Part shown: one piece after another, positions 13,058 to 20,084 of the stretch
How positions within the stretch are numbered: the first letter of the stretch is position 1
Layout of the letters: the number at the start of each line of letters is the position of its first letter
NCBI GenBank assembly: GCA_000143165.1
Contig: CP002084.1
Span: forward strand, 620,001-684,000
Origin: Dehalogenimonas lykanthroporepellens BL-DC-9
Lineage (GTDB): Bacteria > Chloroflexota > Dehalococcoidia > Dehalococcoidales > Dehalococcoidaceae
Length of the DNA: 64,000 nt
Reading direction: 5' to 3'
The notes under the pieces: generated by a model
Databases searched by the model: none
The model's input: only the letters and a program-made list of their open reading frames with translations
What the model was told of the DNA's origin: nothing
Translations under genes and position numbers: made by a program

Positions 13058-13079
13058 CCGTCCGGTCAGGGCGGTTTTT
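13058..13079 (+). terminator. Hairpin with T-tract just upstream of ilvD
   Basis: CCGTCC (13058-13063) pairs with GGGCGG (13069-13074), one G-T wobble, around the loop GGTCA and is followed by five T. It lies 73 bases after rpiB and only 15 bases before the ilvD ATG. It could terminate rpiB transcripts or attenuate ilvD. Confidence 0.5.
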
Positions 13080-13094
13080 GATTAGGTGATCCTC

Positions 13095-14762
13095 ATGAAA
13101 AGTGATTCCATAAAAACAGGCATTGAGCGAGCGCCCCATCGTTCTTTGTTGCGTTCTTTGGGTTTGTCAACTTCTGATTTTTCAAAACCGTTTATCGGCA
13201 TTGTTAACAGCTTCACAGACGTTGTACCCGGGCATCAGCATTTACGTAGCATAGGGGAAGAGGTTAAGCAGGGGATCGTTCAGAGGGGTGGTGTTCCATT
13301 CGAATTCAATACCATCGCCGTCTGCGATGGTTTGGCTATGAATCATCAGGGGATGAAGTATAGTCTGGCTTCAAGGGAATTGGTTGCGGATACCGTTGAG
13401 GTGATGGCTCAGGCGCACGCATTTGATGGCTTGGTTTTCATACCGAATTGTGACAAAGTCGTTCCCGGTATGCTGATGGCCGCAGTAAGATTGAATATTC
13501 CAGCAGTATTTGTCAGTGGCGGCCCGATGCTTGCCGGGAAAATGCTGAAAAATGGCCAGATTGTTAAAGTTGATTTGAATTCTGTTTTCGAAGCGGTAGG
13601 TAGTCTTTTGAACGGAAATCTGACTCATCAAGAGTTGGAGGAAATTGAAATCCACGCCTGTCCGGGTTGCGGTTCATGCTCCGGTCTGTTTACTGCTAAT
13701 ACCATGAATTGTCTTACCGAAGTTCTCGGGTTGGGCTTGCCGGGAAATGGTACCATCCCGGCCACCGACGCCCGGCGATTTGCTCTGGCAAGGTCAGCCG
13801 GTGGAACAATCATGGATTTGATTGGTCAGAATTTACGTCCGCGTGATATAGTTACGCAGAAAGCTATCGATAATGCTTTCATAGTAGACGTAGCCCTTGG
13901 AGGCTCAAGTAATTCCGTACTGCATCTTACAGCTATTGCTAACGAAGCCGGCATTGATTACCCATTGGCAAATATCAACAAAATAAGTGACTGTACTCCC
14001 TGCCTTTGCACGATTAGACCTGCAGGATCGGATCATATCGAAGATCTGGATAGGGCTGGCGGTATACCTTCGGTTATGAAGGAATTAAAGCATCTTCTCA
14101 ATTCCGATGCTCTGACTGTTTATGGCGGCATTATTGGAGATGTTATCAAAGATGCTACTGTAGCCGATGGTAGCGTCATAAGGCACTACGATTTGCCGGT
14201 CTCAAATACTGGCGGTATCTCGATACTATTCGGGAATATAGCCCCTGATGGAGCGGTCGTTAAACGATCTGCTGTCGCCGCGGAGATGATGGTTCACTCA
14301 GGACCGGTCAGGGTTTTTGACAGCGAAGATGAAGCCACAGCCGGCATAAAATCAGGTGCTATCAAACCCGGTGATGTAGTAGTTATCCGCTACGAAGGCC
14401 CCAGGGGTGGTCCCGGTATGAGAGAAATGCTGACACCGACTTCCATGCTTGCCGGCATGGGTTTGGACACGTCAGTTGCTCTGATCACGGACGGAAGATT
14501 TTCCGGCGCGACAAGAGGCGCGGCTATAGGGCATGCCGCTCCGGAAGCGGCTCTTAACGGCCCCATAGCCGCTCTTAAAGAAGGGGATATTGTTGACATA
14601 AATATTCCTGAACATTCGCTGAATGTGCGATTAAGCTCTTCTGAAATCAAAGAAAGGCTCCAAAACTTACCTATTTTCACGCCTCGTGTTAAAAACGGAT
14701 ATTTGAAACGTTACGCCGCCATGGTTACCTCTGCCAGCCGTGGAGCTGTCTTTGCCGACTAG
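13095..14762 (+). CDS. ilvD: Dihydroxy-acid dehydratase
   Basis: IlvD dehydrates dihydroxy-isovalerate and dihydroxy-methylvalerate to the keto acids that precede valine, leucine and isoleucine. The 555-residue protein has the Fe-S cysteine motifs [13 protein letters not shown] and [18 protein letters not shown], plus [13 protein letters not shown] and the C-terminal [19 protein letters not shown]. The ATG at 13095 is used because AGGTGA lies 5 bases before it; an in-frame GTG at 13086 would overlap that site. It opens the branched-chain amino acid cluster and is followed 9 bases later by ilvB. Confidence 0.96.
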
Positions 14763-16990: not shown

Positions 16991-17995
16991 ATGGCTGTTA
17001 TTTATTACGAAAAAGACTGTAATCCTGAATTGCTGGCAGACAAGGTAATCGGAATTATCGGGTATGGATCACAAGGTCACGCTCATGCTCAGAATTTAAG
17101 AGACAGTGGGTTGAAAGTAATCGTCGGCGGACGTCCGACTTCTCCAACCTGCACTCAAGCCGCCGACGATGGGTTTGAGGTTCTTTCCAATTCCGAAATG
17201 GCGAAAAAGGCCGATGTTATTATGGTTCTGGCACCTGATCAGGTTCAAGCCAGCGTGTATAGAGAAGATATAGAACCGAACCTCCGTCCGGGCATGACCT
17301 TGATGTTCGCCCACGGGTTCAACATCCATTTCAACCAGATATTACCGCCTGATACTATTGACGTGGTTATGATTGCGCCCAAAGGGCCAGGACACATGGT
17401 AAGGCAAGTGTATACCGAGGGTGGTGGAGTTCCCGCGCTGATTGCGGTGTTTCAGGATGCTACTGGTAAGGCGAAAGACATTGCGTTATCGTATGCGCGT
17501 GGAATCGGGGCCGCAAGAGCCGGTGTGTTGGAAACTACCTTTGCTGAAGAAACTGAAACTGACTTGTTTGGAGAACAGGCTGTATTGTGCGGTGGTACCG
17601 CGGCGTTGGTTAAAGCCGGGTTTGAAACTCTTGTAGAAGCAGGGTATCAACCTGAAGTTGCATATTTTGAATGTCTGCACGAATTGAAGCTGATAGTTGA
17701 CCTGATGTATAAAGGCGGCTTACGTTATATGCGTTATTCTGTAAGTGATACCGCTGAATATGGCGATTATGTAACCGGCCCACGTATCATAAATGACGAA
17801 ACTAAAGACGAAATGTGGCGAGTTTTGTCTGAAATACAGGATGGGACTTTCGCCAGAGAGTGGATTCTGGAGAACCAGGCCGGCAAACCACATTTCAACG
17901 CCACGCGTCGTATCGAGGCGGCTCACCCTATTGAAATTGTGGGGGAGCAGTTACGGAGTATGATGAGTTGGTTAAACAAACCGAAGAAACAATAG
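16991..17995 (+). CDS. ilvC: Ketol-acid reductoisomerase
   Basis: IlvC isomerises and reduces acetolactate and acetohydroxybutyrate with NAD(P)H and Mg2+. It is a class I (short) enzyme of 334 residues. The Rossmann motif [20 protein letters not shown] is present, and the following loop [10 protein letters not shown] would decide NADH or NADPH preference. [41 protein letters not shown] and [17 protein letters not shown] carry the acidic metal ligands. The gene is followed by 130 bases containing the putative leader peptide and hairpin before leuA. Confidence 0.96.
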
Positions 17996-18017: not shown

Positions 18018-18071
18018 ATGATTGATATAATCCGGATAATCCTCATCCTTAGCTACCCCTCTTCCTGGTAG
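18018..18071 (+). CDS. Putative Ile/Leu-rich leader peptide before leuA
   Basis: A 17-codon frame reads [17 protein letters not shown] and then TAG. Six of 17 residues are Ile (three different codons) and two are Leu. It ends inside the loop and 3' arm of the strong hairpin at 18054-18082. The arrangement of regulatory codons followed by a hairpin is what a ribosome-mediated attenuator of branched-chain amino acid genes would show. There is no clear ribosome binding site before the ATG, and a TATAAT box lies inside the frame, so translation is uncertain. Confidence 0.4.
18023..18031 (+). promoter_or_regulatory. Extended -10 box upstream of leuA
   Basis: TGATATAAT is a perfect extended -10 sequence. 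No good -35 box is found 16-18 bases upstream. If used, transcription would begin near 18038, so the mRNA would contain the whole hairpin at 18054-18082 but not the leader peptide start. Confidence 0.35.
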
Positions 18072-18082
18072 GGAGAGGGGTA
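18054..18082 (+). terminator. Strong 13-bp hairpin between ilvC and leuA
   Basis: TACCCCTCTTCCT (18054-18066) pairs with AGGGAGAGGGGTA (18070-18082), 13 pairs with one G-T wobble and a three-base loop. Only a short TTT follows, so as a terminator it is incomplete. Its 3' arm is purine-rich like a ribosome binding site and lies 3 bases before an in-frame GTG at 18086, an alternative leuA start. Confidence 0.6.
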
Positions 18083-18124
18083 TTTGTGGCTTTACCTGAT
18101 CAAGAAACGGAGGATATTCGGAAT

Positions 18125-19666
18125 ATGAATAAATTAAAAATTTTCGACACTACATTGCGCGACGGTGAACAGGCTGCCGGCGCAACTTTGAACATTCAGG
18201 AAAAACTGGAAATTGCCCGCGCTCTTGAGGCTCTGGGCGTTGACATCATCGAGGGAGGCTTTCCAGTCACCTCTTCCGGGGATTTTGAAGCTGTCAGGCG
18301 TATCGCCAATGAAATTCGCGGCTGTACCATATGCGGATTAGCCAGGGCTAACCCAAAAGATATCGATAGCGCCTTCGAAGCCTTGAAAAAGGCCGCTGAC
18401 CCACGGATTCACGTTTTTATTTCCTCATCGGAAGTCCATATGGTGCACCAATTGAAAAAAAGCCGCGATGAGGTTCTTCAACTAGCTCGGGACATGGTGA
18501 AAAGAGCCCGAAGTTATGTGAGTGATGTAGAATTTTCTCCAATGGATGCTTCTCGTTCTGATCCGGAATTTCTTTACGCGTTGTTGCAGGCGGTCATAGA
18601 GGCCGGAGCCACAACCTTGAATATTCCCGATACGGTTGGCTACGCCATGCCGGCCGAATTCGGGGAGTTGATAAATGGAATCAATAAACGTGTTGAAGGG
18701 GTAGAGCGCGCAGTTATCAGCGTACATTGTCACGACGATCTGGGGCTGTCTGTTGCCAATTCTCTTGAGGCCATAAAAAATGGAGCCAGACAAGTCGAGT
18801 GTACCGTCAACGGTATAGGCGAACGGGCTGGCAACGCAGCCCTGGAAGAATTGGTAATGGCGATTCGCACTCGTTCTGATTATTATGAGGTCACTACAGA
18901 TATTAACACCGAATTGATCTATCCGACCTCTCGACTGGTCAGCCAGCGGACCGGTTTTTCGGTGCAACCTAATAAAGCAGTAGTCGGCGCCAACGCTTTC
19001 AGACATCAGTCAGGCATTCATCAAGATGGTGTTATAAAAATGCCGAAAACCTACGAAATTATGGACCCGCGTAGTGTTGGAGTGCCGTCTTCTTCTCTCG
19101 TATTGGGCAAACTATCCGGTCGTCATGCCTTCAGAGAGCGTTTGGCTCAGCTTGGATACAATCTGGCAGAAGTGGATTTTGACCGAACCTTTGCCGCGTT
19201 CAAGGAACTAGCCGACAAGAAAAAGGAAGTTGCTGACAAGGATATTGAATCGCTTGTAGCCGAAGGACAGCGGACAGTAAAGGAAGCTTATCACCTCGAC
19301 CGAATTCAAGTGTCCTGCGGCGACCGGGGGGTACCTACCGCCGCTGTCAGACTTATCGACCCTGATGGGAAAATATTGGAAGATGCCGCTTTGGGTACCG
19401 GACCTGTCGACGCCGTATATAAAGCCATCAACCGGTTGGTGGGGGTGCCGAATCAACTGACTGAGTTTTCGGTAACCTCTATCACTGCAGGCATTGACGC
19501 TATTGGTGAGGTATTCATACGTATTGAAAGCGAAGGCATTTCTTATTCAGGTCGTGGTGCCGATACTGACATCATCGTTTCGAGTGCTAAGGCATACATG
19601 AATGCCTTGAACAGATTGCTTGTATTTCAAGGAATCAAACAAGTAAGTGAACAGGGTTCCAAATAG
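18125..19666 (+). CDS. leuA: 2-isopropylmalate synthase
   Basis: LeuA condenses acetyl-CoA with 2-oxoisovalerate, the committed step of leucine synthesis. The HMGL-type TIM barrel opens with [17 protein letters not shown] and contains [16 protein letters not shown] with metal-binding histidines and [15 protein letters not shown]. The C-terminal regulatory LeuA dimer domain is present, giving 513 residues. I place the start at the ATG at 18125, which matches the family and has GGAGG 11 bases upstream. A GTG at 18086 would add 13 unconserved residues. The stop is followed directly by the MgtC-like gene. Confidence 0.94.
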
Positions 19667-19667
19667 T

Positions 19668-20084
19668 GTGTTGAGTGAAATAGAAATTGTAATCAGGTTA
19701 TTATTGGCGGCAGGTCTGGGGGCTTTTGTTGGATTTCAACGCGAAACTGCCGGAAAGTCCGCTGGTGTAAGAACTTTAGCGTTGATATCATTAGGGTCGG
19801 CCTTGTTTACAGTAATTTCTGTCTCTGCGTTCAATGGTGCTGATACCGCGAGAATCGCCGCCAATGTAGTGACCGGAATCGGTTTTCTCGGTGCCGGCGC
19901 CATTATGCGTCGGGAAGAAGGCGCTATCGAAGGCATGACTACCGCGGCGACCATTTGGGCAGTTGCGGCCATTGGCATCGCTACGGGAAGCGGGTTGTAT
20001 CTTATCTCGATTGTCACCGCGTTGGTAGTATTCGGATTACTTCTACTACCACATTCCAATCACAAAGGGAGTAATAGGAAGTGA
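19668..20084 (+). CDS. MgtC/SapB family membrane protein
   Basis: This 138-residue protein is the hydrophobic MgtC/SapB domain alone. Signature segments are [45 protein letters not shown] and [19 protein letters not shown], giving about four transmembrane helices. The soluble C-terminal ACT-like domain of true MgtC is missing. Homologues are linked to magnesium limitation or ATP synthase control in pathogens, but the function of short versions is not established. It starts at GTG 19668 just after the leuA stop (a GTG at 19647 would overlap leuA) and overlaps leuC by four bases, so it is embedded in the leucine operon. Confidence 0.82.

Follow-up and report, generated by a model that had tools for sequence, protein, structure and literature searches.

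A probable translational attenuator of leuA that senses leucine supply in Dehalogenimonas lykanthroporepellens and other Dehalococcoidales

The window analysed here, a stretch of 64,000 nucleotides from the single-contig genome (1.69 Mb) of Dehalogenimonas lykanthroporepellens BL-DC-9, contains an operon in the order ilvD-ilvB-ilvN-ilvC-leuA-(MgtC-family gene)-leuC-leuD-leuB-cimA. The MgtC/SapB-family gene between leuA and leuC lies at 19647-20084, with matches under the curated cut-offs. At the head of the operon, a terminator-like hairpin (CCGTCCGGTCAGGGCGG, then TTTTTGATTA; 13058-13097) ends just before the ilvD start (ATG 13095), and it may either terminate the transcript of the upstream rpiB-like gene or attenuate the ilvD operon. 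The region between ilvC and leuA holds the following features:

16991..17995, forward strand: ilvC, the upstream gene (NCBIfam ketol-acid reductoisomerase)
18018..18071, forward strand: leader peptide ORF of 17 codons, ATG at 18018-18020, stop TAG at 18069-18071 in the P3 loop region
18021..18044, forward strand: P1 5' arm, leader codons pairing with the leuA Shine-Dalgarno (SD) and start region (partner 18110-18130 in the minimum-energy structure)
18042..18051, forward strand: CTCATCCTTA, that is CTC ATC CTT (Leu-Ile-Leu) plus the next base, the putative sensing codons
18054..18082, forward strand: P3 hairpin of 13 pairs, its 5' arm coding for the C-terminal part of the peptide
18109..18113, forward strand: leuA SD GGAGG, mostly paired within P1 (partner 18040-18044)
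18110..18130, forward strand: P1 3' arm, overlapping the leuA SD and start codon
18125..19666, forward strand: leuA, 2-isopropylmalate synthase, start ATG at 18125 (NCBIfam NF002086, 801 bits; TIGR00973, 737 bits; both above cut-off)

The leader ATG follows the ilvC stop (17995) by 22 nt. A first-pass annotation of the same letters had described a 17-codon frame with six isoleucine and two leucine codons between ilvC and leuA, ending in a 13-bp hairpin, and both descriptions hold: the frame occupies 18018-18071, and the hairpin at 18054-18082 has 13 pairs, one of them G-U, closed by a 3-nt loop. The element extends past 18018-18082, up to the leuA start codon, and the 135-nt ilvC-leuA spacer folds at -46.3 kcal/mol against -34.0 +/- 3.8 kcal/mol for its shuffles (z = -3.2). 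The annotation had also offered translational control as an option, with the 3' arm of the hairpin serving as the ribosome binding site of an alternative GTG start of leuA at 18086. That GTG is not kept, every relative starting leuA at the position of ATG 18125, and the proposed binding site falls with it; the option itself survives in another form, since it is the SD and start region of leuA that pairs with the leader.

Within the genus, the element is present once per genome, directly 5' of leuA, in all eight Dehalogenimonas genomes. The hairpin and the 17 codons from the start to the Trp of PSSW are kept in every one of them, and the stop after PSSW is absent at that point in one of the eight; examples of the leader peptides are MNFIGGSILILINPSSW, MIHLSRRILILISPSSW and MKHLSGNILILSGPSSW. 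CTCATCCTTA and most of CCCCTCTTCCTGG are invariant in Dehalogenimonas, and the codons 5' of CTCATCCTTA vary in step with the facing leuA start region.

For a survey of the order, the 420 nt 5' of leuA were taken from every Dehalococcoidales genome with a usable leuA, which gave 123 regions. The leader ORF and the element occur in 70 of these (33 genera in the analysed set): 65 regions hold a leader ORF matching [LI][IV]L..P[SFL], and five more carry degenerate copies (LTLTHPSP in G015, LTLIGPSI in G118, LNLTVPSP in G023, LALTIPSI in G114 and LLITYPLH in G115), while one of the 65 pattern matches, G113, is degenerate in its proper frame (LALTVPSI). Dehalococcoides (G034-G036) carries the leader too (...GKLLILSSPSFW...). 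Across the order, the leader generally ends in ...(K)-Leu-Ile-Leu-(T/I)-x-Pro-Ser, followed by a CCCCTC/GAGGGG hairpin with the stop codon usually in its loop. The element was not found in 53 of the 123 regions, many of which have a very short ilvC-leuA spacer of only a few to some tens of bases, and a few of which are cut by a contig end. The conservation of leader and hairpin in relatives, which the first-pass annotation had asked to be checked, is borne out at the level of both genus and order. One genome (G119) possesses two leuA copies 44 kb apart (L031, L114), each with its own element 5' of the gene.

Searches by covariance model and by pattern give a similar distribution. A model built from five Dehalogenimonas sequences (R1) finds copies in other families, six of the stronger ones lying directly 5' of leuA. 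Conversely, a model built from 17 sequences of other genera with Dehalogenimonas left out (R2) recovers all eight Dehalogenimonas genomes; it matches the window copy at 18020-18130 (E = 3.6e-8 in the window search), and this copy is the sole match below E = 0.001 on the whole genome, at 9.4e-7. A scan of 84,980 species genomes for CTCATCCTTA plus the hairpin returned 47 stretches. The ilv-leu operon accounts for 43, nearly all of which lie directly 5' of leuA, a contig end or record start hiding leuA or its start in three. The pattern matches outside the operon (L177, L179, L191, L200), as well as weak model matches (L252, L254), were set aside as unrelated CCCTCT inverted repeats. A phylum-wide pattern search found no element outside Dehalococcoidales. 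One R2 match falls outside the order in the same class (G743, L229), also 5' of leuA (MHYCEVSLLGGNRLILTCPSPL...).

The leader behaves as a coding sequence. An in-frame upstream start precedes any stop in the Leu frame of 62 of 63 copies, compared with 22 and 11 for the other two frames, and the stop codon lies within the P3 loop in 39 of the 63. Over the 33 genera, the three codons read CTC in 32, ATC in 28 and CTT in 33. Both Leu positions are Leu in all 33 genera, and the middle residue is Ile in 30 and Val in 3, in a set chosen by a regular expression that asks for some of these residues, so that residue invariance is partly built in while the codons were not selected. Among the degenerate copies, obtained by a looser search that still required L.L or LLI, Leu-x-Leu is kept in five of six; the middle residue varies to Val, Thr, Ala or Asn across copies, and the Leu codons of the element form Leu-x-Leu and not an uninterrupted run. 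The first Leu codon is synonymously CTT in G139, G118 and G113, which points to selection on codon meaning. Of the Ile/Leu-rich sensing proposed by the first-pass annotation, the leucine half stands, as the two Leu codons are conserved; the Ile run is not, and even the middle Ile varies. Judging from these codons, the sensed residue is most likely leucine.

Hardly any variation is seen in CTCATCCTTA and the CCCCTCT arm, even at wobble positions; for CTCATCCTTA this constancy exceeds what codon sensing alone requires, and beyond the first Leu codon it points to an additional constraint at the RNA level. Such near-invariance, beyond the need of a peptide, would suit a structured RNA that binds a protein or ligand, as proposed for the actinobacterial LEU element, the ORF being incidental. 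Rfam 15 scans of the window and 11 loci gave no family match, T-box included (the best sub-threshold match, RCNMV_TE_DR1, scores 16.6 bits against a gathering score of 80 and was taken as chance), and a new RNA class is therefore possible. A structured RNA with an incidental ORF is nevertheless unlikely, because the frame is open with a start in nearly every copy, because the Leu codons survive where Leu-Ile-Leu changes, sometimes synonymously (CTC to CTT), and because the P3 loop is not conserved and varies between genera. The fixed CTCATCCTTA and LIL(T/I)xPS also go beyond codon supply, and could reflect a nascent-peptide arrest that responds to leucine, or the 10-mer serving as an anti-SD-like RNA element that is exposed or covered; a leader mixing peptide arrest with codon sensing has a small but appreciable chance of being correct.

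It is the long-range helix P1 that is decisive; the first-pass annotation had given that role to the local 13-bp P3 hairpin. RNAalifold recovered P3 but not P1 from a mixed 31-sequence alignment; since registers differ, P1 was tested by swapping partners and by aligning 17 sequences picked for a common P1 register (alignment A5). For the swap test, each genus contributed a single sequence, whose 26 nt preceding the Leu codons were set against its own or another genus's leuA start region: the own partner gave -19.7 kcal/mol versus -14.9 +/- 0.57 kcal/mol for swapped partners, and 0 of 10,000 swaps were as low, whereas a control segment further upstream responded far less (379/10,000). Pairing in A5 extends over 88.0% of cells, versus 85.3% when shuffled (0/500), and slid versions reach 48-70%. 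In the upper P1 helix, pairing stands at 84%, and both partners have changed at five of the ten pairs, a double-change count that does not exceed its shuffles (279/500), so that the strongest evidence for P1 is the swap test. P3 pairs in 98.7% of A5 cells and, being mostly invariant, offers little covariation evidence. The covarying stem that had been looked for is thus found in P1 and not in the local hairpin. Examples of P1 pairs are GGGAGAAUAA/UUAUUCUCCC, AAGAGAAU/AUUCUCUU, GAAAGAAAUA/UAUUUCUUUC and GUGAGAAUU/AAUUCUCAU. In the window, the first Leu codon (CTC, 18042-18044) pairs with 18110-18112, whereas in most other genera the codons before Leu pair instead.

Several additional pairings were considered and discarded. 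P2, which joins CTCATCCTTA to a UAAGGAG partner, is clear in Dehalogenimonas but not universal; pairing of tRNA-CCA with UGGU in the P3 loop is confined to Dehalogenimonas; and a pseudoknot of P1 with a 10-mer:SD pairing was dismissed on an argument from linker lengths. No obvious pseudoknot was seen on inspection, and the fold programs used model none. In G061/G062 (upstream regions L061, L081 and L092), CTCATCCTTA gives way to CTCATACTTA, and the partner immediately 5' of the leuA SD is now UAAGUGUGAG or UAAGUAUGAG, which looks like compensation.

The presence of CCCTCTCC/GGAGAGGG inverted repeats elsewhere in some of these genomes raises the question of whether a chance ORF merely stands beside a repeat-type hairpin with no regulatory function. 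Membership of a repeat family was ruled out, the P3 stem being unique in the window genome, and the conservation of frame, codons and P1 covariation over 33 genera at one genomic position makes the absence of function extremely improbable.

In other phyla, ilv and leu operons usually have a leader of Leu/Ile codons with a GC-rich hairpin, and here, too, such a hairpin lies over the end of a Leu/Ile codon leader. These features would fit a classical transcriptional attenuator, in which transcription would stop short of leuA at the 13-bp or another hairpin if no ribosome stalls. The poor T-tract conceded by the first-pass annotation is, however, confirmed: no U-tract follows P3 or a later pairing in any copy read, in the window or in relatives, and the terminator scan does not report the 18054-18082 stem. 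The lack of a U-tract indicates that the P3 hairpin is not a terminator and renders intrinsic termination unlikely. Moreover, the leader codons covary with the leuA SD and not with an antiterminator arm. Classical transcriptional attenuation is consequently improbable, although Rho-dependent termination is conceivable. What persists of the attenuator first proposed before leuA is a conserved branched-chain leader running into a hairpin; its mode of action is likely translational.

Taken from the sequence comparisons, the element probably acts in cis as a translational attenuator of leuA, with leucine supply as the sensed signal. By default, the leader codons at 18021-18044 would pair with the leuA SD and start codon (18110-18130), and leuA would be poorly translated. 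With enough Leu-tRNA, a ribosome would pass CUC-AUC-CUU and end at the stop in or near P3, after which the P1 5' arm could pair again. A shortage of charged Leu-tRNA would instead stall the ribosome at the two Leu codons, where it would cover the P1 5' arm; the leuA SD would then be freed and leuA translated. Leader translation in the cell, stalling on leucine shortage and the resulting change in leuA output are the steps that we infer.

Folding of the set of copies, with an assumed 30-nt ribosome footprint masked (from 18 nt 5' to 11 nt 3' of the A-site codon's first base), gives a simulated measure of SD exposure. The mean unpaired probability of the leuA SD is 0.19 in free RNA. Placing the A-site on codons -2 to 0, where 0 is the first Leu codon, lifts it to about 0.41; it stands at 0.36 on the Ile codon and 0.33 on the second Leu codon, and returns to about 0.23 nine codons past the first Leu, where the stop often sits. 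The simulated means are accordingly 0.19 free, 0.37 stalled on the Leu-Ile-Leu codons and 0.25 at the stop; by genus, stalled exceeds at-stop with p = 0.006 and free with p = 0.001. Opening across the set is about twofold under the assumed footprint, its peak lying slightly before the Leu codons, and stalling brings no rise in simulated SD exposure in 9 of 63 copies. In the window copy, the SD hexamer at 18108-18113 is unpaired at 0.27 free and 0.38 at Leu, with a maximum of 0.67 at codon 5. Across the set, the modelled profile fits a ribosome that masks the P1 5' arm only while at or near the Leu codons; the opening there is moderate, and the window copy gives a less distinct profile.

In a few genomes, the leader ORF does not stop at the hairpin but continues until it overlaps the leuA start (G153, G055, G154, G124 and the degenerate G015); such an overlap means that those genomes would have to work differently, and the arrangement suggests translational coupling there. 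In the L050, L051, L080, L120 and L083 regions, the run-on ORF ends at a TAA overlapping the leuA start (ATGGATAA). The overlaps in these several genomes would favour a general explanation by coupling or reinitiation, whereby leader translation opens P1 and feeds ribosomes to leuA with no amino-acid sensing. That explanation is very unlikely for the element at large, given that most copies have their stop in the hairpin loop, well away from leuA, that a ribosome terminating there leaves P1 free, and that the kept Leu codons would be left without a reason.

The start of the putative attenuator's leader differs among genomes. In five Dehalogenimonas genomes, TTGAAA-N17/18-TAACAT stands 6 to 9 nt before the leader ATG, while a group in another family has TATAAT at a distance of about 12-14 nt, several of its members also showing a TAGACA-like -35. 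Overall, a TATAAT-like hexamer (5 or 6 matches) at 5-14 nt is found in 17 of 44 ATG-start copies, against 12% in shuffled upstream sequence. Leaders with such close promoters would be transcribed as leaderless or nearly leaderless RNAs, which would explain the missing ribosome binding site in those relatives. In many relatives, among the upstream regions L006-L010 and L090-L153, a conserved -35/-10 ends 6-14 nt before the leader ATG; it is absent in the window genome (G000), whose copy has no clear promoter and no clear SD for the leader, the missing ribosome binding site having been observed by the first-pass annotation. The window leader, beginning so shortly after ilvC, may instead be read by ribosomes leaving that gene.

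The proposed element shares its principle with several known systems. As in the classical leu, ilv and trp attenuators (Rfam Leu_leader, Trp_leader), a leader contains codons for the product and ribosome position decides the RNA fold, and the stop codon in the hairpin loop recalls trpL; unlike them, it has no U-tract terminator hairpin and no Rfam match, and its output is SD exposure. In ermC and cat leaders, a ribosome stalled on the leader ORF frees the sequestered SD of the downstream gene. The stall would likewise free an SD here, the signal being a shortage of charged tRNA-Leu and not an antibiotic. T-boxes similarly let tRNA charging control amino-acid genes, but no T-box match was obtained here; they have been reported in Dehalococcoides for ileS and trp genes and none for leuA (PMC2494555).

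The closest resemblance is to the actinobacterial LEU element, in which a leader ORF has a run of Leu codons that pairs with the leuA SD, plus a pseudoknot (PMC1262725, Seliverstov et al. 2005), and for which codon mutations in S. coelicolor had outcomes that do not fit classical attenuation (PMC1262725). The S. lividans leuA leader peptide MRFGLLLLSCRGEGL is encoded on a leaderless transcript with no typical terminator (PMC8079986), and a leuL peptide is described for C. diphtheriae (PMC5784534). Both systems place a Leu-codon leader directly before leuA, pair leader RNA with the leuA SD and have no typical terminator; the leaderless transcript of S. lividans leuL likely has counterparts in some Dehalococcoidales genomes. 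However, the peptide motif is LLLL..RG there and LIL(T/I)xPS here, and the published leuL peptides MRFGLLLLSCRGEGL and MNRANLLLLRRGGSQA show no resemblance to LIL(T/I)xPS in a comparison by eye. The published pseudoknot has no equivalent seen by inspection, the SD pairs mainly with codons before Leu (joined in Dehalogenimonas by the first Leu codon), and the leuA here is of the TIGR00973 type, unlike that of the LEU-element systems. By the published descriptions, function and layout agree while motif and fold differ; henceforth, the element is regarded as working like a translational attenuator and is not filed as a LEU element. The open-access papers covered report no such element in these organisms, and the Dehalococcoidales version appears to be undescribed so far, its principle being known from other bacteria.

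The element constitutes an RNA family absent from Rfam 15 and provides a second phylum with a leuA leader that combines SD sequestration with no terminator. Because its pairing covaries and both Leu codons persist around a variable residue, it is also relevant to how the actinobacterial LEU element works, a mechanism still unsettled. For the order, including Dehalococcoides and Dehalogenimonas, it offers a specific and testable account of how leucine synthesis may be controlled.
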